Of a stretch of DNA of 64,000 nucleotides, positions 43,981-62,132 are shown one piece after another. Under the pieces are notes generated by a model that did not search any database, was not told where the DNA came from, and saw nothing but the letters and a program-made list of their open reading frames with translations. The position numbers and the translations under genes are program-made. Numbering within the stretch: the stretch's first letter is position 1; every line of letters starts with the position of its first letter. Origin of the DNA: Trichosporon coremiiforme (lineage: Eukaryota > Basidiomycota > Tremellomycetes > Trichosporonales > Trichosporonaceae); assembly GCA_039545355.1 (NCBI GenBank), contig BCJJ01000049.1, forward strand, positions 1 through 64,000, read 5' to 3'.

Positions 43981-46900
43981 CTACTCGCTGCCGCTGTCGG
44001 GGTCGAGGTCGATCGGGTTCTGCGACGAGGTGCCCTGCTCGTCGGGCCCAGCCGTGTTGGAACGGGCCCGCTTCCGCTCGCCGCCCATCGCGACTGAGCC
44101 GCTGACGGCGCGCTTCTTGCCCTTGTCCTTGTAGGTCTGGTTCCGCGCACGTGCAGGAGCAGAGACGGCGGGCGGCCCGACCGGTTCCTTCGACTCCTTC
44201 GTCTCCGGCGTGGCTGGGCGCAGTGTGCTCGGACTACTGGCGCCGTTAACGCGGTATTCCAGTAATGTCTGCTGTTTGAACCCATCAGGTACGCTCTTGC
44301 GACTGCTCCTTGGTTTCTTCGACTGCCGCGTAGGACTGGAAGGCGGCTCGCGCGGGGGCGACGACCCAAACTGGCTACTATTCCGTTTGCTGTTGGTCGA
44401 AGAGATTTGGGCAGCACGCAGCACGGCGTTGGGCGCATGGTCGCGGAGGTGGATCGGGCCCGCGAGCTCGTCGTCCTCGCTCAGCTCGTGGACCGTGTCG
44501 GGTACGGCGGCGTCGCCCATATCAACCTCCGGTTGGTCGCTGGAGAACAGCACACTAGGCTGACTGGCGTCCTCGTCCGACTTTGGCTGGGAGTCCTCCA
44601 CGAGCACATGGCTGTCCACCTCTTCCCTCGATGAGACCTTCGTGCTCATCGAACGCATGCGCGACGGCCCCCTCGACGCACCGCTCTCACTCTCCGAATC
44701 ACTAAGTAGAGAGGTACGGGGTGTTGGCGTCAGGAGGTCGGTGTGCTCGGGTTGCGGTTCAGCAGTGGCGCTGTTACTGTCGTCCTCGGGCAAGGGTTCA
44801 GAGTTTTGACGTCTAGTGTCAATCGGCGGACGAGTATCGGGCGGAGCGGCCGAAGACGAGCTAGACGTCGCCCCCGAAGAGCTCGTGCTCTCCGTGGTCG
44901 AGGAGTCGGTGCCTTCGCCGACTGTGGGCAGTGGATCCGGCCGGTCCGGCGGGTTCACCTGGATGACCGAGGCTTGGGAGTCCTCGACACCAGGGAGAGA
45001 CGCCGCAATCTGAGACGTGCCCTGGCCCGTCGCTTCCTTGTATTGCAGGTTCAGCTGCTGGATGGTCTCAATCCACTTGGCACGCAGCTCCTTTGTGGTC
45101 GCCGCGTGCCATACATGGTTCATCTCGGTTTCGTACTCCTCCTTCACTTCCTTTTCCCTGGCGTAAGGAATCGGTTTCTAAGACCGTCAGCCACCGCTCA
45201 GATGAGTACCACCTCAACTCACTCCGATAAACTCCAAGACCTTTTCCGTATCGTTCAGGAGGCACCGCAAGAAGTGAATGACGAAGACGCCGCAGTCGGA
45301 AAAGTTGTTTTGTTGAGGTACCTTGGCCTCGACATACTCGATAGTGGACGGCGCAATCTCCTTCTGCAGCTTGTCCCGAGCCTCGAACTCGAGCCACAAC
45401 TTGAGGTTGTCTCCTACAGCCTTGTGGCTGCCGCCAAGAGAGTCAAACGTCATGATGTACGTTCTACAGTTAGCTCAGGGTCTGTGCTGCTCACTCACTT
45501 GCTCTTGTCCAACAGGTCAATGGCCTCCCGCTTGAACTTCGGTTTGGAGTTGACTGGTGGTGAGGGGGTCTTCGGTGGGGACAAAGCCATGTTGTCTTGG
45601 TCGTTTATCCAACTTAGTTCCATAGACTGAATGGGCTTGGGGTCTGGGCTGATACGGCAGCCCTCGACCTTTTCCTTGATATGCTCCACGCTCTCATCTT
45701 CACCCTCACTCATGACATCGAGCGGGTCTTTACCTTCTCGCGAGCTCTCCGCAGATGCAGAGACCGGCCTCGAGGACTTTGCGCTCGCGGGGTGAGAAGG
45801 TGGCAGCTGTTTAATCGGTGAAGGGCGCGGTTCGATGAGAGCTCGCGGGTTAAAGATGACCGCCAGATACCAATGTAGGTTCTCGTTGACCGGTACAATG
45901 ATGAAGTCCTTCTGGAAGACATCGACAGACTTGGTCCACTTCTTGACTGAATCATACGCCGGCCACTTCTTGTCGTTGTCCGGCTTCGGTCTGGTCGTCA
46001 GCGCTGCGGCTACGCAGCACTTACTTTGCGTCTCGGCTGGAGAGCTTGTTGTAGAAGAAGGAATTGAAGAGATGGAGAGCTGTCTCCTGACTCTGCAACA
46101 CCTCTGCCACAGTGTAGCGGAGGCCAAACTCAAGGGTGACGTCGTTCAGGAAGTCATCGTCCATCAAGCGGTAGAGACTGTCCTTGGTGATGTCCAAGCT
46201 GCTTCGCCCTGTGAAGGGGTACGGGAAAAGGCTGGGATCAGGATCGATACCGCTGCCGAAACTCACAGGTCGTGCTTGTCTAAATGCGGTGATCGGCGGC
46301 GTTGCGGCCGACTGGATTGGGGCGCTTCATCGTCGGAAAGGGTGTTAACTGTGGGAGTAGCCCCCGCCATGGAGCGACGCGTACTGCGCCTGGGTGGTGC
46401 TGCGTCACTGGGGCTGAGAAAGTCAGAGATACAGCTTTTAACGCGGCTTACAAGTTGAGACGGGACTGGCTGGGGCTCCGAGACTCTTTGCCTTTTCCTT
46501 TAGCCTCAAAACGCTTCTCCGCCGCGGCGGCTGCCCTCTTGGACGGTTCGGACATATCGGACGCGGGTCTGATAGCTTTAGACGACTTTTTGGCGCCCTC
46601 CCACATCCGTACGAAGATGGCCACAGCCTCATCACTAATGTAAGCATGAAGCTGGTACCCGTAACGTACTCAAGGATATCGGCAACTAAGCCGCTCTTCG
46701 CCTGGATGATCTCGACAGCCCTGTCTACCAGGTTCTGGCTTCCGCTCTCTTTCGGAAAGGCGATGTCCACAGCAATATCACCTTCGGCGTCAGCTGAAAT
46801 ACCTAGGCAGGCTACCCACCACCTTCGAAAGGCTGTGACATGGCTACCAGATCATCAACGTCGTTCTTGCCGAGCGCCATTTCAAGTCGTAGAAACCAAC

Positions 46901-51723: not shown

Positions 51724-52186
51724 GCTGTACGTGTACAGGTGTTGTTGTAGCTCTCAACTTTCCGCAGATTACAACGCGACACACCGACTGTCCTTGGTGG
51801 AGGTCTGATCGACGTCACGTGAAGTGGCCCCTGGGCTCGTACCTGGAAGATAAGCAGATGGTCTCGTACAGGCATCATTCCTGATGCATACTGCAAAGAG
51901 TTTTGAGGTGTCATCAGCTTATCCACTGCACTTGTCAATGGTGCTTTGCAAAGCAAGCTGCAGTGAGTGCAGGACTTGTTGCGTTGGAGAGATGATGCAT
52001 GACTCAGCACTCCCAACAGCTTTTGCTAAGAATCGTATACGTCAATTAGCCTGGATTCTAATGGCCACTGCTAATCCTTTATTACAAGACGCGTTTGCTT
52101 CCGCCTCCACTTCAAAAGTTCAGTCAGTTACGTCTTCAGTCACGAACCTGCGGGTGGTCGCTCCTCACACCTACCCATCAACAGCC
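51724..52186. other. Divergent promoter region ALG2 / DIS3
   Basis: 463 bp between two housekeeping genes. No conserved frame or TATA box recognised. Confidence 0.5.
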
Positions 52187-55100
52187 ATGGTCTCAACCGC
52201 CTCCGACGAGGGGAGCTCATCGCACCCTCCCATCACTATCCTCAAGCGTCAGAGGGCTGACGCTCCTCTGGCGCAGAACAAGTTCCTGAAGAAGACCGCC
52301 CGGGGAAAGGTCCTGCAATGTAAGCTCCAACGATGGGTAACATCTGACATCAGTCCTCCGTGAACGCTATGTGCGCGACGATATTCCTTGCGGCTTCGCT
52401 GAGTGCAGGATCTGCACTGATTTCCCGGGGTTCCGACCGGTGCTTCCTGAGAAGGGATACACCCGGCACTCGAAGTTCGGCGGCAGCAATGGCCACTGGC
52501 TTGTGATCGATACGAACATTGTTCTTCACCAGGTGAGTTTCGATCGTATGTATAAGCTGACAAACAGATGGACCTGCTTGCAGCCCTCCCTCCGCAGCTT
52601 CCCATCATTGTTCCCTCGACTGTCATCCGCGAGACCCGGCACCGATCTCTCCCTCTGTTCAACCGTCTCCAGCAGCTGGTGCAGGAGGAGGACCGGTGCA
52701 TTTGGGTCTGGTGGAACGAGGAGTGCCGAGACACTGCGACGGTCGGCATTGAGGAAGAGGGAGAGTCTATCAACGATCGTAACGACAGAGGTGAGCTGCT
52801 TCATACGCGTGTCAGTCTTCTAACGTTCAGCGATCCGACAGACCCTCCACTACTATCCTCAGCATCTCTCGAGCTCGTCCCACACCCTCCCGCAACTCGT
52901 CCTGTTGACCGACGACAAGCGGAATCGAGAGCTCGCTCAGGCCGAAGCTCTCACCGCTGTCTCTGCCCGTGACTACGTCGATGGCCTCCAGGGAGAGGTC
53001 CGTGACAAGCTGGTCGACCTGGTCGTCGGAGGTGTCGATGAGATGGAGCCCGGAGAGCGCCGAAGCAAGAGGATCTACGATGACGTGAGTGCCACTGTTC
53101 TGCTCATGACTGACAAGCAGTACCTTCCCCAGGAGACGTTGACTGCAGGTGTGAAGAGCGGTCGCTACCTTCAGGGTTACTTCAATGCCAACCAGTACAA
53201 CTACCTCGAGGGCACCGTGCGTGTTGCGGGAATGAGTAAGCAGGTTCTGCTCGTCGGACGGCAAGCCATGAACCGATCCGTCGACGGTGACATGGTTGTC
53301 GTGGAGCTCCTGCCAGAGTCCGAGTGGAAGGCGCCTGGAGATGAAGTTCTTGACCAGGACGTCGCTCTCAAGGACGACGATGTCGAGGGCGACGACGTTG
53401 CTGTTGAGGAGAAGACGGAGAAGCAGGAGGAGATGGACGTTGAGGAGGTCACCAAGAAAGCCAAGCGCGAGATTATGCCCACTGGCCGTGTTGTTGGTGT
53501 GACGAAGCGCAACTGGCGTGCTTACGTCTGCCACATCGACCGCTCGTCTTTGTCGGAGGCTGCCCTCACCTCGCTTTCCCAGCAGACTGTGTTTGCTACG
53601 CCCGTCTCTCCCGCTCTCCCCCGTATCCGTCTGCGTACCAGGCAAGCTCCGGCTCTCCTCGATCAGAAGATCCTCGTCACGATCGACAACTGGACCGTGA
53701 ACTCACGCTACCCGGATGGCCACTTCGTCCGCGCACTCGGACAGGTCGGAAGCAAGGAGGCTGAGCAGGAGTCGCTCATGCTCGAGTATGAGGTGCCGTA
53801 CCGTCCCTTCGGTAAGGCTATCCTGAACTGTCTGCCCAAGGAGGGCGACGACTGGAAGGTGCCCGAGAAGACTCCCGAGAACCTCGAGTGGCGTGACCGA
53901 GAGGACCTCCGTGACCTGCTCGTCTGCAGTATCGACCCGCCAGGATGTCAGGATATCGATGACGCCCTTCACGCTCGGAAGCTTCCAAACGGCAACATCG
54001 AGGCGGGTGTGCACATCGCCGATGTGTCCCACTTCGTCCACGCCGACAACCCGATGGACTCTGAGGCCGCTGCCCGTGGAACCACCGTCTACCTCGTCGA
54101 CAAGCGTATCGACATGCTTCCCGCGCTTCTTGGTACCAACCTTTGCTCTCTGCGACCCTATGTGGAGCGCTTGGCCTTCTCTGTCATCTGGGAGCTCACT
54201 CCCGAGGGCAAGATCGTCGACGTTCGCTTCACGAAGTCTGTCATCTCGTCGAAGGAGGCGTTCACTTATGCCGCTGCCCAGCAGCGCAAGGACGACAAGT
54301 GAGTTAGAGGAGCGAGGCCGCAACTGACAGCAGGTCTCTGAATGACCCTCTCACCGAGTCGATTCGTCTGCTGAACTCACTGGCCATCAACCTGAAGGCC
54401 GCCCGTATCGCTGCCGGTGCTCTTTCTCTTTCGTCCCCCGAGCTCAAGATTCATCTCAACTCGACGGAGTCAACGGCGCCCATTGACGTCGAGCAGAAGG
54501 AGCAGCTTGAGACGAACTCTCTCGTCGAGGAGTTCATGCTTCTCGCCAACATTAGTGTTGCCCGACGAATTCAGGAGTCATACCCCGCTACCGCGGTTCT
54601 GAGGTGAGTTTAATGACAGAGGCAACAACTGACCGTTTCAGACGTCACCCTGTTCCGCCGAAGACCAACTTCGAGGCGCTGCAGGACATCCTGCAGAAGC
54701 GCAAGGGCATGACGCTTGACGTGTCGAGCTCCAAGGCTCTCGCTGACTCGCTCGACAAATGCGTCGACCCCAAGCTGCCCGAGTTCAACACGCTCGTGCG
54801 TATCATGGCCACGCGCTGCATGCTTTCGGCCGAGTACTTCGGCGCGGGCAGCGTGTCCAAGGAGGCGTACGGACACTACGGTCTCGCGTCCGACATCTAC
54901 ACGCACTTCACCTCCCCGATTCGACGATACGCCGACGTGCTGGTGCACCGCCAGCTCTCGGCCGCGATCAACTACACGCCTCTGCACCCTTCGCTGCAGT
55001 CGAAGCAGCACGTCGAGCGCATGCTCAACGTCGTGAACAAGCGTCACCGTCTTGCGCAGATGGCGGGTCGTGCTTCGGTCGAGTTCTACGTCGGCCTCGC

Positions 55101-55460
55101 CGTCAAGTCGCGTACCGAGGACTCGGAGCAGAAGGCCGTGCGTGAGGAGGCCTTCGTCATCCGCACGTTCAGGAACGGTCTTTCCGTCTTCGTCTCCAAG
55201 TGAGTGTCTCGCTTTTTGCAGTTGGATCGTTGCTAATAAACAGGCTGGGTCTCGAGGGACTCATCACGTTCCAGATGGACACCCACGACTTTGACCCGGA
55301 GAACTACTGCATCAATGTGCCGAAGCCGGGCGGCGGAACCGCGACGATCGCCGTCTTTGACCGTGTCACTGTCGACATCTCGATCGAGAAGGACCAGAAC
55401 ACCCAGAGGCACAAGGTCAAGATGGTGCTGGTTGAACCCGTTTCGTCGGAGGGACTGTAG
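52187..55460 (+). CDS. DIS3: Exosome ribonuclease RRP44
   Basis: Catalytic subunit of the RNA exosome with 3'-5' exo- and endonuclease activity. Eight exons: 52187..52319, 52354..52532, 52568..52790, 52831..53084, 53121..54298, 54334..54603, 54642..55199, 55244..55460; 1003 aa. The CR3 cysteines (C57, C62, C65 in [11 protein letters not shown]) precede the PIN domain ([13 protein letters not shown]97). Two cold-shock domains follow, then the RNB domain with [15 protein letters not shown] (D535, D541, D543, D544) and [18 protein letters not shown], and an S1 domain at the end. The acidic run at about residues 345-380 ([13 protein letters not shown]) is a species-specific insert. Intron 53085..53120 is 36 nt, in frame and stop-free, so an ORF caller would wrongly include it as 12 residues. 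Confidence 0.95.
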
Positions 55461-55746
55461 AGAAGGTAGCAAATCTGTAGACGGTGTAGACGTAGAGACA
55501 CAGATGGATCGCAGTGTATCTTTGTAACTTGCTATGGGCAAGATGAACGAGTATCACCGACAGGACTAATTCAAGTCGAAACCGAAAAGTGACCGAGATT
55601 TAGCATCATTTAACCTCGGGACTACAAAAACGACGACGATTCCATCTCCGTTGCAACATCTGCCTGTCCTCCGTTCGAAAGATTGTAACTGCACCTCCAA
55701 TCCATCCGATGCATGCATAGGAGAACCAAAAAGTTTCAGAACCAAG

Positions 55747-55751
55747 AAAAA
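55747..55751 (-). terminator. RNA polymerase III terminator of tRNA-Asp
   Basis: TTTTT on the minus strand immediately after the discriminator base of the tRNA. Confidence 0.8.
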
Positions 55752-55823
55752 CTTCCCGTCGGAGAATCGAACTCCGATCTCCCGCGTGACAAGCGAGCAT
55801 ACTAGCCGTTATACGAACGGGAA
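55752..55823 (-). tRNA. tRNA-Asp (GTC)
   Basis: 72-nt cloverleaf on the minus strand, no intron. The acceptor pairs TTCCCGT with ACGGGAA, discriminator G. The D-arm region reads GTATAACGGCTAGTAT. The anticodon stem CTCGC/GCGGG closes the loop TTGTCAC with anticodon GTC. The T-arm is CGGAG-TTCGATT-CTCCG. A T5 terminator follows directly. The CCA end is not encoded, as usual in eukaryotes. It lies in the gap between DIS3 and the CoA-transferase gene, on the opposite strand to DIS3. Confidence 0.93.
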
Positions 55824-56502
55824 GGGCGTTGTATGGATGAGGGCGCAAGGGGCGCGAGCGGCGCGGCCCCCTCGCCCTCGGCCCTCGCCTCAACGAGCTG
55901 CAACAGCAGTCTGGTAGCTTGGGACCATGAAGGGAGAGCTGGTTCTGCGTAGTATCATGAAGTATTCGAATGGACAGTAGGGCTTCGGAGGGTCCGATGC
56001 GACGGAATTTTGACCGGATTATGTTGGATTGGAGGCGTCCGACTCCTCTCGTCGGGCTTCCCATCCGAAGAGCCGGCCGACTCCTTGCTTGACCCCTTCC
56101 TCGGCCCCTCGTCCGACCCTTCCGAGGATTGTTCGTATGAGCTGGAAGCTGGACAAAACCCCTCCTCCCCACGTGCAGGTGGTAGAAGAACCATGACGCG
56201 TGTCTTCCTCACTCCCGGCACGTGGGTTCGTGGGGGAAGGGTAAAGACTGCCACCGCCACTTCACCGGTCAGCAACGCCGGCGAGGACGGGTGCCCTGCG
56301 AGGTGCGTTACGCTAAGGCGTTCGGGGGGTGGATGTTGGTGATCTGTGATGGTCGAGAATTCGAATCAGATCCTAATCGAGAGAATGCGCGGCAGCTGTC
56401 CCGCCGTATCAGTCTCAATAGCGATAGCAATCGTTGTACAACTATGCATTCCATGATCTGCCTGCTCGTCTACTCGCACAAGGGCCATCCCGGCCCCACA
56501 AC
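55824..56502. other. Intergenic, 679 bp
   Basis: Between the tRNA 5' end and the CoA-transferase stop. Small overlapping frames on both strands show no conservation. Confidence 0.5.
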
Positions 56503-58712: not shown

Positions 58713-59122
58713 TTAGCCGAGCCTGGTAGACAACTCGCGGGTGGCGCGCATCTCGAGCTTCAGACCCTCCTCCAGGTCGTCTTCCTCGACAGTGGGAATG
58801 GAACCAGAGGTAAGCTGGTCGTTCTGGAGGACCTCCGCGTCCAAGCACAGTCTGGTGTGAGCGACGAAGTAGAGCGAGCCCTTACCGAAAGGAGCTGACG
58901 TCGATGTTGTGAAGGTCAGCGAGTTTATTCTGTTCATCAGCTGAGGAAGGCATTGACGAGCTCACCTTGAGCTTGGTAACCTTGTGATGGCGCTTCACAT
59001 GAAAGTGCGTCTCATTGCCGTTCATATTCCTCACGGTGACCTTCACCTGGTCCGGGTCTGTCGTCAGAGTATGCATGGCGGGAGGGCTCACTACGCATTG
59101 GCCGCGCTGGCGCATCAGACAT
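58713..59122 (-). CDS. SUMO-like protein 1 (no GG in the annotated frame)
   Basis: Exons on the complement: 59122..59092, 59057..58966, 58929..58886, 58851..58713; lengths 31, 92, 44 and 139 nt; 101 aa. Ubiquitin fold of the SUMO/Rad60-SLD type: VKVTVRNMNGNETHFHVKR (beta1-beta2), VTKLKNKLADLHNIDVSSFR (helix and turn), LCLDAEVLQNDQLT and EEGLKLEMRATRE. The first three exons match SUMO-like 3 exactly in length and phase, which supports the splicing. The frame ends STRLG then stop, with no di-glycine. A CTAAC...ACAG acceptor overlaps the stop, followed by codons for GGGA and a stop, so a GG-bearing isoform is possible. Introns are 34-36 nt. Family call is structural and by comparison within the cluster. 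Conjugation ability is doubtful for this form. Confidence 0.75.
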
Positions 59123-60137
59123 GCCGATCGACTGGATGCAAAAAGGGAGATGGTGGCGTGTGAATGCAGGCGATGATGCTGGTCGTGGTGGGTGGTGGTG
59201 TTGAAAGCCGATGCGCAGAGTAGTAGAGATGGTGGATGGAACGGTGGATGGATGAGTGGAAGTTGCCGAGTGCAGATGTGATGGGGAAGCGGTGGGGAGT
59301 GGAGTGACGACAGCGACGACGAGGGTTGACACGACGAGCGCGGGTTTCGGGTGCGGGGGAAAGAGATGCTCCCGCTGTGGCATCAAGCTCTCACCAGTGT
59401 GCTGCTGACGCACTGCGTGTGTGCAGCCCACAAGCAACGCCGGATCCACCGAATCTAACGCGGTGCCCACCGCATCTAACGCAGTAAAGTGAACTCCCAA
59501 CATCGAGTGTGGCGATCGGCCGAGTTTTTAGGATATAAATCTCGCGCGATCCAGCGGAAGTTCCTGCACCCGCCTGAGGTCAGACAGCCTCAAGAAGCCT
59601 AAATTGCTTACTAGCATCACTATCAAAGCTCAGGTAGGCTTCAGCTCTTTGCACAATAGTTTTATCGTTGCACGGGGTCCCGATTTGGACCTCGCGCCCG
59701 TTAGAAAAACTCGAAGATAACACTTCTCGATCTCCCTTCGAATGGCGTGGGATCCGGATTCAACCCAGTATTAGCGAGGACTTTCTGATCATCCCAGGCC
59801 AGGTTGCGGTGCAGTTCGATGGGTTTTTACAGAATTATGGTCGATTTCTCATCTTTTTGGACATTTTCAACTTCTTCACCTGATCTTCGGCGTTTCTCAC
59901 GTCATTTTACGCCCAGGCACAACACGCGGCAGCGTGGAGATGGGCCGTGAAACGTCCGTTCATTGGCCCAGATAGAGCCCAGTCCAAACTAGAGTTTGGA
60001 CTGCCGAAGGGATCTCCGGGGTATGTTTCGTGACACGTCGCCGACGCGCGGAAGCGGATGCAGGTTGCTGCGTCGCTGGCATGATCCGTACCATTCGTGC
60101 GAGTCGACTTCTCACACATGCATCCACACCCACAGCT
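59123..60137. other. Divergent region between SUMO-like 1 and 2
   Basis: 1.0 kb. A TATAAAT on the plus strand at 59534..59540 is too far from SUMO-like 2 (about 600 bp) to be assigned safely. No conserved frame. Confidence 0.45.
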
Positions 60138-60650
60138 ATGGCTCCGCTCATCCCACCCGACCAGCCCATCAGTGCGTTACGCCTATGCGTGGATGCACTT
60201 GCCATGCATGCATTGAGCTTCCCGGAAACCATACGCGCTTACACGTAGACCCTAAGACGGTTCCGATCCTAGTTACAGCAGCCCTCGCAGCTGTACCAGG
60301 ACCCCCCGTGACCTGCTACATCACGCGGCCCTCGGAATTAATCAAGCTGAAGGTGCGTATGGAAAGATGGACAACTAATATCAGATCCAGCTCGGGAAGC
60401 TGAGCAACATCGACCGGCACACGATGAAGTGAGTTGGTTATTGGCGTCAGAACAGAGCTTTGTGGCCAATACTGATCAGAGACTCCTATACGACGGCGAG
60501 AGGGCCTGACACGACGACACATTCGCGAGCCTCGGTATCGACGACGACGACATCCGCGGCGGTGTCCACTTTGAACTCATGGCTGAGCGTGAGTTGTGAC
60601 TGGGGCGAAGCTAACACGCAGAGATTGGCGGTGGCAGATCTAGTCGATGA
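60138..60650 (+). pseudogene. SUMO-like gene 2, disrupted by one nonsense codon
   Basis: Exons 60138..60171, 60249..60352, 60385..60428, 60482..60588, 60622..60650 (34, 104, 44, 107, 29 nt). The start MAPLIPPDQPI and the segment CYITRPSELIKLK match SUMO-like 3 and 4. Exon 4 keeps the family length of 107 nt but carries TGA at 60507..60509, where SUMO-like 3 has Pro (GETLP). After that codon the frame is intact: TFASLGIDDDDIRGGVHFELMAE, then the last exon gives QIGGGRSSR and a stop. So the di-glycine and a four- or five-residue tail are kept. Using the CAG acceptor two bases earlier (60478-60479) avoids the stop but shifts out of the ubiquitin-fold frame. Either a young pseudogene, a readthrough gene, or an assembly error. 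Confidence 0.65.
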
Positions 60651-60843
60651 GGGATTGGAACGCGACAGTCACTGATGCATCCTTCTTGCTTGATGATCGA
60701 TCTGCAGTTTCAAAGTGCAACTAAGAGATGTGGGAACCTTCACGTGCGTGGTCAAGCTGTACAGGTGTCACCTGCCTTTTATGCTTCGGCAATACTGTCG
60801 TTCTTCACAGTCTTCACTCCCCGCTTCATTCTCCACCGCAGCA

Positions 60844-61335
60844 ATGCCTCTGATTCCCGACGACGAAGACATCAGTACGTCCTTTCCCCTAGCTTTACAG
60901 TGTTGGCATGGCTTACACCAGACCCCCGCCGCATCCCTGTCCAGGTGCGGACGGACCGCGGCCTCCCCACGAAGTGCTACGTGTCCCGCGGCGCGAAGCT
61001 CATCAAGCTCAAGGTGAGCTCTTGAACACCATTTCGCGTCCATGCAGATGTCGCACAGCGCTCTTTGACTGTTACAGCTAACATGCAGATCGAACTTGCC
61101 GAGAAGATGAACGTCAACCCTCACGAGCTCAGGTACGTGTTGCCTATGAACCGAGCACCTAACCCCGCAGCTTCCTGATCGACGGCGAGACCCTCCCCCA
61201 GCAGAGCTCTCTCGACTCCCTTGGGTTCAGTGATCAGAAGATTAGGAAGGGTGTCGAGATCGAGGTGCTCATTGACCGTGAGTCTCAGTTAAGTAGGGTC
61301 GTTCGCTTAGCTGACATCCAGACGTCGGGGGATAG
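60844..61335 (+). CDS. SUMO-like protein 3, ends exactly at Gly-Gly
   Basis: Exons 60844..60874, 60922..61013, 61089..61132, 61171..61277, 61322..61335 (31, 92, 44, 107, 14 nt); 95 aa. N-terminal MPLIPDDEDI is a short acidic tail, then RIPVQVRTDRGLPTKCYV, AKLIKLKIELAEKMNVNP, FLIDGETLPQQSSLDSLGF and VEIEVLIDHVGG followed by the stop. FLIDGE and the GG terminus correspond to the FRFDGQ and QTGG landmarks of SUMO. The 14-nt last exon codes for the VGG alone. With no residues after GG, the protein would need no protease to be conjugatable. All splice phases close and all sites are GT-AG with CTAAC or CTGAC branch motifs. Confidence 0.8.
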
Positions 61336-61656
61336 TCTTCCTGTCAGGTGACCCAGCTATGCATACCGTAGTCTCAATGAGGCGAGTGTTGCACGTTCAA
61401 GACGCACGTCGAGCTCCCTGCTGATCTGCCGTCACCCCAAGGGGGGTGAGTATCGACGCCCAAGACCCATTCCATGCGTTCTAGACCAAATCTACTCACC
61501 CAAGGCAGACCTTCGCCTGCGCCCAGTACGCCTGCCTCCGTCTCACGTCGAGACCTGCTGACCAGATCACTGACCATCAACTTCCTCCTTTTCTCAACCC
61601 CTTGTTTCTTCCCAAGCCTCACCCCTCTCAATCGATGTCTGAACATCTCACCCACA
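61336..61656. other. Intergenic between SUMO-like 3 and 4
   Basis: 321 bp. The last about 100 bp are CT-rich, a typical leader for SUMO-like 4. Nothing else recognised. Confidence 0.5.
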
Positions 61657-62132
61657 ATGGCCGACAACGCACCACCAATCCCGCCTGATCAGCCGATTGA
61701 TCCGATGCGCATCCCCATTCTCGTGCATCCCCTCGACCGCGGGCCGGTGATCCACTGCGTCCTCAGAATGACCTCGCGCATGGGCAGATTGCGCGTGCGT
61801 CTGACAGCTGGGGCAATGTCGCTTGTATATAGCTGACAGCAGGACTCTCTCGCAGCAAAGAGCGGGATCGAGCGAGATGCATTCGTGTGAGCGTTGGTTG
61901 GTGTGGCGTCGTAGCGACGACCACACCTGGAGATCGGCCACTGACACACAGCCTCCTTCATGACGGGCCTCTGGTCCACGATATCGACACGCTCGAGAGC
62001 CTGGACGAGCACGGCGTCGACGAGGAGGAGATTCGTTCCGGAGTCCGATTCGAGATGAACGCAAGACGTGAGTCCAGCTCACTTGGTGCCTTGAGCTGAT
62101 GTGTAGAGACCGGCGGCCATCGGTGGTTGTGA
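61657..62132 (+). CDS. SUMO-like protein 4, QTGG precursor
   Basis: Exons 61657..61794, 61843..61886, 61952..62067, 62107..62132 (138, 44, 116, 26 nt); 107 aa. The first exon equals exons 1 plus 2 of SUMO-like 2 (34+104 nt), so intron 1 was lost here or gained in the others. Sequence runs MADNAPPIPPDQPIDPMR, IPILVHPLDRGPVIHCVL, LAAKSGIERDAFVLLHDG, DEEEIRSGVRFEMNARQTGG and a tail HRWL. The QTGG is identical to the C-terminus of mature SUMO and is followed by a four-residue extension, as in SUMO precursors cleaved by ULP1. Exon 3 is 9 nt longer than in the sister genes, a three-residue insertion in the loop after LESL. The best candidate in the cluster for a true conjugated modifier. Confidence 0.8.

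Follow-up and report, generated by a model that had tools for sequence, protein, structure and literature searches.

Evidence for a cluster of SUMO-derived genes, one of them broken, within a wider family of SUMO-like genes in Trichosporon coremiiforme

The stretch of Trichosporon coremiiforme DNA analyzed here, 64,000 nucleotides long and referred to as the window, holds four SUMO-like genes, g1 to g4, which we spliced by hand from the window DNA. The comparisons described below give good support to the view that this cluster is real and SUMO-derived, with one broken member, and that it belongs to a genome-wide family; the SUMO ancestry of the four genes is well supported, and their functions are what we infer. 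Our main reading, to which we assign a rough probability of 0.55, is that g1 to g4 are lineage-specific paralogues of canonical SUMO: one founder copy would have been duplicated at the DNA level to give the four genes, with fast divergence by birth and death afterward, leaving g3 and g4 as conjugatable modifiers with altered readers, g1 as a decoy and g2 as a pseudogene. SUMO ancestry and a local expansion had been proposed in an initial annotation of this DNA. The introns, the profile matches of three of the four genes, an orthologue of g4 and the phylogenetic trees all speak for that proposal, and the interruption of g2 and the lack of a significant profile match for g4 speak against it. Features are collected in Table 1.

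Table 1. Positions of the SUMO-like genes and associated features; positions given without a contig name are those of the window.
Feature	Location	Strand	Exons or basis
g1, SUMO-like gene	58713..59122	-	59122-59095, 59057-58966, 58929-58886, 58851-58713
g1, end of open frame	58713..58738	-	sequence compared with g2 to g4 and canonical SUMO donors
g2, SUMO-like gene	60138..60650	+	34/104/44/107/29 nt
g2, in-frame TGA in exon 4	60507..60509	+	spliced reading
g3, SUMO-like gene	60844..61335	+	31/92/44/107/14 nt
g4, SUMO-like gene	61657..62132	+	138/44/116/26 nt, intron 1 absent
Ulp1-family (Peptidase_C48) SUMO-protease-like gene, two exon matches	45244..45980 (45244-45459, 45834-45980)	-	
Six SUMO-like loci	C16 980.6-994.6 kb		exon-4 model
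Five SUMO-like loci	C28 298.4-312.3 kb		exon-4 model
Two SUMO-like loci	C16 364.8, 365.8 kb		exon-4 model
Two SUMO-like loci	C2 2153.3, 2154.2 kb		exon-4 model

The window corresponds to C49:1-64000 of a genome of 42.0 Mb in 134 contigs. From the genome size and the doubled loci, the source is probably a hybrid Trichosporon, and T. coremiiforme and T. ovoides are treated as hybrids in PMC6642101. A separate canonical SUMO gene, which the initial annotation had called for as a control, exists at two loci (on C2 and C4). These encode identical 99-residue proteins ending in EQIGGSL, and their exons measure 55, 89, 44, 92 and 20 nt. The reading frames of g1, g3 and g4 are open and that of g2 is interrupted. 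Genes g2 to g4 are arranged in tandem and g1 lies on the opposite strand. All 14 introns of the four genes are GT-AG introns, and the last 14 bases of each contain CTNAY (CTRAC in 7 of the 14), as expected of branch points.

The gene structures carry much of the case for SUMO ancestry. Every intron present in g1 to g4 has the phase of its canonical SUMO counterpart: the canonical phases 1, 0, 2, 1 recur in full in g2 and g3, g1 has the first three (1, 0, 2), and g4 has the last three (0, 2, 1). Introns 2, 3 and 4 also sit at the same aligned places as in canonical SUMO, after KLxKLK, before the LLxDG strand and before the residue preceding xGG. For intron 1 the phase matches, and the position, in a region where the alignment is loose, is the same to within about 1 residue. 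A 44-nt exon is common to all four genes and canonical SUMO, and canonical SUMO further resembles the cluster in carrying its GG in the last mini-exon. The resemblance has limits. Canonical SUMO has an exon 4 of 92 nt, whereas that of g2 and g3 is 15 nt longer (107 nt) and that of g4 is 24 nt longer (116 nt), and where canonical SUMO has a Phe in the groove that binds SUMO-interacting motifs (the SIM groove), g2, g3 and g4 have a Cys. The complete exon and splice pattern is seen only in g2 and g3, since g1 (28/92/44/139 nt) lacks the terminal mini-exon and g4 lacks intron 1; to speak of four genes of the same structure, as the initial annotation did, is too strong.

At the protein level, g1 to g4 are 27 to 34% identical to canonical SUMO. 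Among six proteins, i.e., g1 to g4, the Trichosporon asahii relative of g4 described below (P0002) and canonical SUMO, all 15 pairwise alignments beat all 500 shuffles, with z values from 9.2 to 85.1. The statement that three of the genes keep a C-terminal GG, one of them as QTGG, is borne out: g3 has HVGG, g4 has QTGG, and g2 has QIGG beyond its stop.

The retained GG in g3 and g4 suggests that both are conjugatable modifiers with changed readers. They would be activated through this GG by the SUMO E1 and E2 and then attached to targets. The g3 protein ends in DHVGG directly at the stop, without a tail, and would require no maturation cut, and the g4 protein ends in RQTGGHRWL and would require a cut of the Ulp1 type. 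The SIM-groove Phe lies in the second strand of the SUMO alignment, which we take to be the strand forming that groove; because it is replaced by Cys, we expect g3 and g4 to be read by different partners. From sequence, we regard the two as probable conjugatable modifiers whose SIM groove is altered. When g3 was the only query, a single protein (P0001) was returned; it is an unspliced version of the g3 locus from a strain nearly identical to this one, with 97% identity over 161 residues.

Gene g2 is interrupted in exon 4 by an in-frame TGA, and we take this gene to be a pseudogene in the T. coremiiforme genome; the frame past the TGA ends in QIGGGRSSR. This stop, the lack of a GT at the last g1 donor, the high divergence of the genes and the failure to find a second copy of the cluster DNA in the genome would all suit a cluster that is mostly decaying, a set of dying SUMO duplicates under relaxation that are functionless and only briefly kept. 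We consider that outcome unlikely, although it deserves to be weighed seriously, because g3 and g4 are open here, g4 is open and spliced with its GG and at 75% identity in T. asahii, and another relative has an exon piece of g4 (P0010). Homologue searches with g3, with a g1-g4 profile, and with P0002 and g2 turned up no annotated orthologue of either g2 or g3 in T. asahii.

The T. asahii orthologue of g4 (P0002) is A1Q1_01699 of strain CBS 2479, a protein of 106 residues that is named as a hypothetical protein by NCBI and given a ubiquitin-like name in UniRef. It is joined at the exon borders that we modeled for g4 and shares the GG end, but its C-terminus, ARQIGGCLS, has the tail CLS where g4 has HRWL. 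Its AlphaFold model is poor, with a pLDDT of 52.6 (42.5 with 5 rows). The g1-g4 profile search returned 8 proteins and the search with P0002 and g2 returned 4, the latter including P0009 and P0010, which are exon-4 pieces of g4. P0003 is g4, and P0007 corresponds to exon 1 of g4 in the form that P0002 has; similarity in P0007, P0009 and P0010 breaks off at the predicted splice sites. The g1 of the window is P0005, a g1 that is 97% identical to it is P0006, and P0004, from the profile search, is the g1 of a more distant relative. P0008 is a g1 relative from T. asahii CBS 8904 (A1Q2_07771), and its annotation omits the 44-nt exon. Databases already contain a g4 orthologue and a g1 relative, under hypothetical or uninformative names.

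In its direct reading, g1 ends in TRELSTRLG. Here it differs from canonical SUMO, which has the GG, and the missing GG points to a non-covalent role. The second strand of g1, HFHVKRHHK, aligns with QFKIKRHTP of human SUMO2. Since it keeps the SIM-binding strand and lacks a GG, g1 would serve as a SUMO decoy that stays free and non-covalent, its likely role judging from its sequence. The end of the gene allows a second reading. At the place of the intron-4 donor (58738), g1 has GC (C/GCGAGT) rather than GT, and an exon-5-like stretch carrying GG lies just past the g1 stop, so that use of a GC donor is possible; it could give g1 a different C-terminus.

The same features of g1, i.e., no GG in the direct reading and a SIM strand like that of SUMO2, would also fit a scheme in which all four genes are non-covalent mimics of SUMO or ubiquitin, acting unconjugated as decoys or dominant negatives, and the 27 to 34% identity to canonical SUMO is in keeping with it. 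We think this improbable for the cluster as a whole, given that g3, g4 and the T. asahii g4 all have GG at the canonical exon-5 place.

Profile searches placed three of the four genes over the cut-off for Rad60-SLD (PF11976): g1 (3e-8), g2 read with X at its stop (8.7e-7), and g3 (2.3e-5; 24.6 bits against a cut-off of 23.8). The profile search that had been proposed as a check therefore agrees with the annotation for these three and gives no significant match for g4, which was not listed for Rad60-SLD and alone matched only the ubiquitin family, below the cut-off (E = 0.12). Canonical SUMO itself scored 6.8e-25 against Pfam. The best PDB matches of g1 are SUMO chains (4.5e-6 and 4.8e-6), and those of P0002 are SUMO2 (2.4e-5, summed from two weak repeats) and SUMO1 (2.9e-5); the P0002 strand INCILKMT aligns with IHFKVKMT of SUMO1. 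Searched alone, g3 gave no significant PDB match, the best being an archaeal modifier (E = 0.17), with SUMO2 at 0.36. An origin of g1 to g4 from ubiquitin-like genes other than SUMO is very improbable in view of the intron phases and places held in common with canonical SUMO and the SUMO proteins that lead the PDB matches of g1 and P0002, even though both proteins match the ubiquitin family (g1 at 4.3e-9, slightly better than Rad60-SLD; P0002 at 25.5 against a PF00240 cut-off of 25.4, and at 15.1 for Rad60-SLD, whose cut-off is 23.8) and the g1-g4 profile ranks polyubiquitin chains first, by summing single repeats of about 13 bits, compared to 40 to 48 bits for single SUMO chains.

Maximum-likelihood trees, rooted at the midpoint and with no outside Ubl among their rows, join g1 to g4 and P0002 in one clade, with support values of 91/89 for 15 rows, 99/99 for 14 rows after removal of one long row, and 100/99 without g1, whose branch is long. 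The four genes therefore look like copies of one founder. The trees took in nine of the 15 other SUMO-like loci found in the genome; the remaining six were left out, their models being incomplete or broken (those of C28_311152 and C28_298447 are out of frame), as was the C4 SUMO, which is identical to that of C2. In all three trees, canonical SUMO falls between the window clade and the other SUMO-like genes, a placement that fits two separate expansions, each starting from canonical SUMO.

These 15 loci lie outside the cluster and make the expansion more than local: the cluster is supported, and the claim of a local expansion is too narrow. They were found with an exon-4 model built from 14 peptides and run on selected regions of the genome. 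Rebuilt from coordinates, the model gave 27 rows, from which 21 loci were accepted (four in the window, two canonical and the 15 others; 14 of the 21 are in the model itself). Of the six rows dropped, four were weak, with E over 1, and lay outside the window genes, and two fell elsewhere in g3 and g4. The 14-peptide model likewise yielded 27 rows and these 21 loci. On the 78-kb contig C49, the model yielded no further SUMO-like exon 4 that we accepted. A model made from the window genes and canonical SUMO recovered one of the 15 other loci at an E value of 2.4e-5 and a second at 0.68, and an exon-4 model without the window genes recovered none of the four window exons at an E value of 1 or better. 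The genome search with PF11976 gave 37 rows, 26 of them over the cut-off, with polyubiquitin and other ubiquitin-like genes included; there were rows for 13 of the 15 other loci, seven over the cut-off. Joined cores of other loci passed the Rad60-SLD cut-off in all four cases tested. The readable ends of these loci are WSG, LSG, RSG, HGG and MAG, with WGG for one read by eye, and two have no such end.

The C16 and C28 clusters together comprise eleven loci, several with apparent N-terminal extensions and some with broken models; where canonical SUMO has its GG tail, they have ends such as WSG or WGG, or none. In a SUMO-like gene that ends in MHGG, an in-frame TGA interrupts exon 2 (C16:364533-364613); at this place the frame of the related C2 copy is open. 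Weak exon-4-like rows lie upstream of the C16 pair (C16:363918-364004; E = 0.14) and of the C2 pair (C2:2152447-2152530; E = 0.31), and are perhaps a third member of each.

It is possible, and we offer it tentatively, that Trichosporon has a multi-SUMO system formed by two separate expansions of canonical SUMO, one giving the window set with its longer exon 4 and the other the set elsewhere in the genome. Each haploid set would then have about a dozen SUMO-like genes, provided that the two parental genomes contribute equal numbers of loci; some of the system's products would be conjugatable with changed SIM recognition and others would be free decoys. Comparable events are described for plants. 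According to PMC6680281, plant SUMO paralogues arose by genome duplication and then in tandem, copies having diversified or become pseudogenes, and selection is described as acting on both the sequence and the copy number of SUMO. So far as that account goes, the Trichosporon set resembles the plant one in duplication with diversified and pseudogenised copies, although the host is a fungus rather than a plant. Among titles and the openings of abstracts in the open-licence literature, we found no report of such a SUMO expansion in a fungus. With 21 SUMO-like loci, two of them canonical and one group closely clustered and traceable to its founder, this fungal genome would offer a natural experiment in the splitting of a protein modifier into pseudogenes, decoys and new modifiers.

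A SUMO-protease-like gene of the Ulp1 family (Peptidase_C48) lies 13 kb to the left of the cluster. We take it to be probably Ulp2-like. Its exon at 45498-46145 matches Pfam at 1.9e-8 and occurs once in the genome, and the other Peptidase_C48 gene was found twice; the adjoining open frame at 45071-45442 had no Pfam match. A SUMO protease linked to a SUMO cluster is noteworthy, and the linkage may be due to chance. The other neighbors are ordinary, i.e., a glycosyltransferase, an Rrp44-like exonuclease and a CoA-transferase. When 72 kb of C49 was compared with 30 kb of C3, only positions 52047-55903 matched, at 85%. This similarity ends near a tRNA-Asp gene (55751-55824), and the stretch of this tRNA gene resembles about 40 places in the genome.
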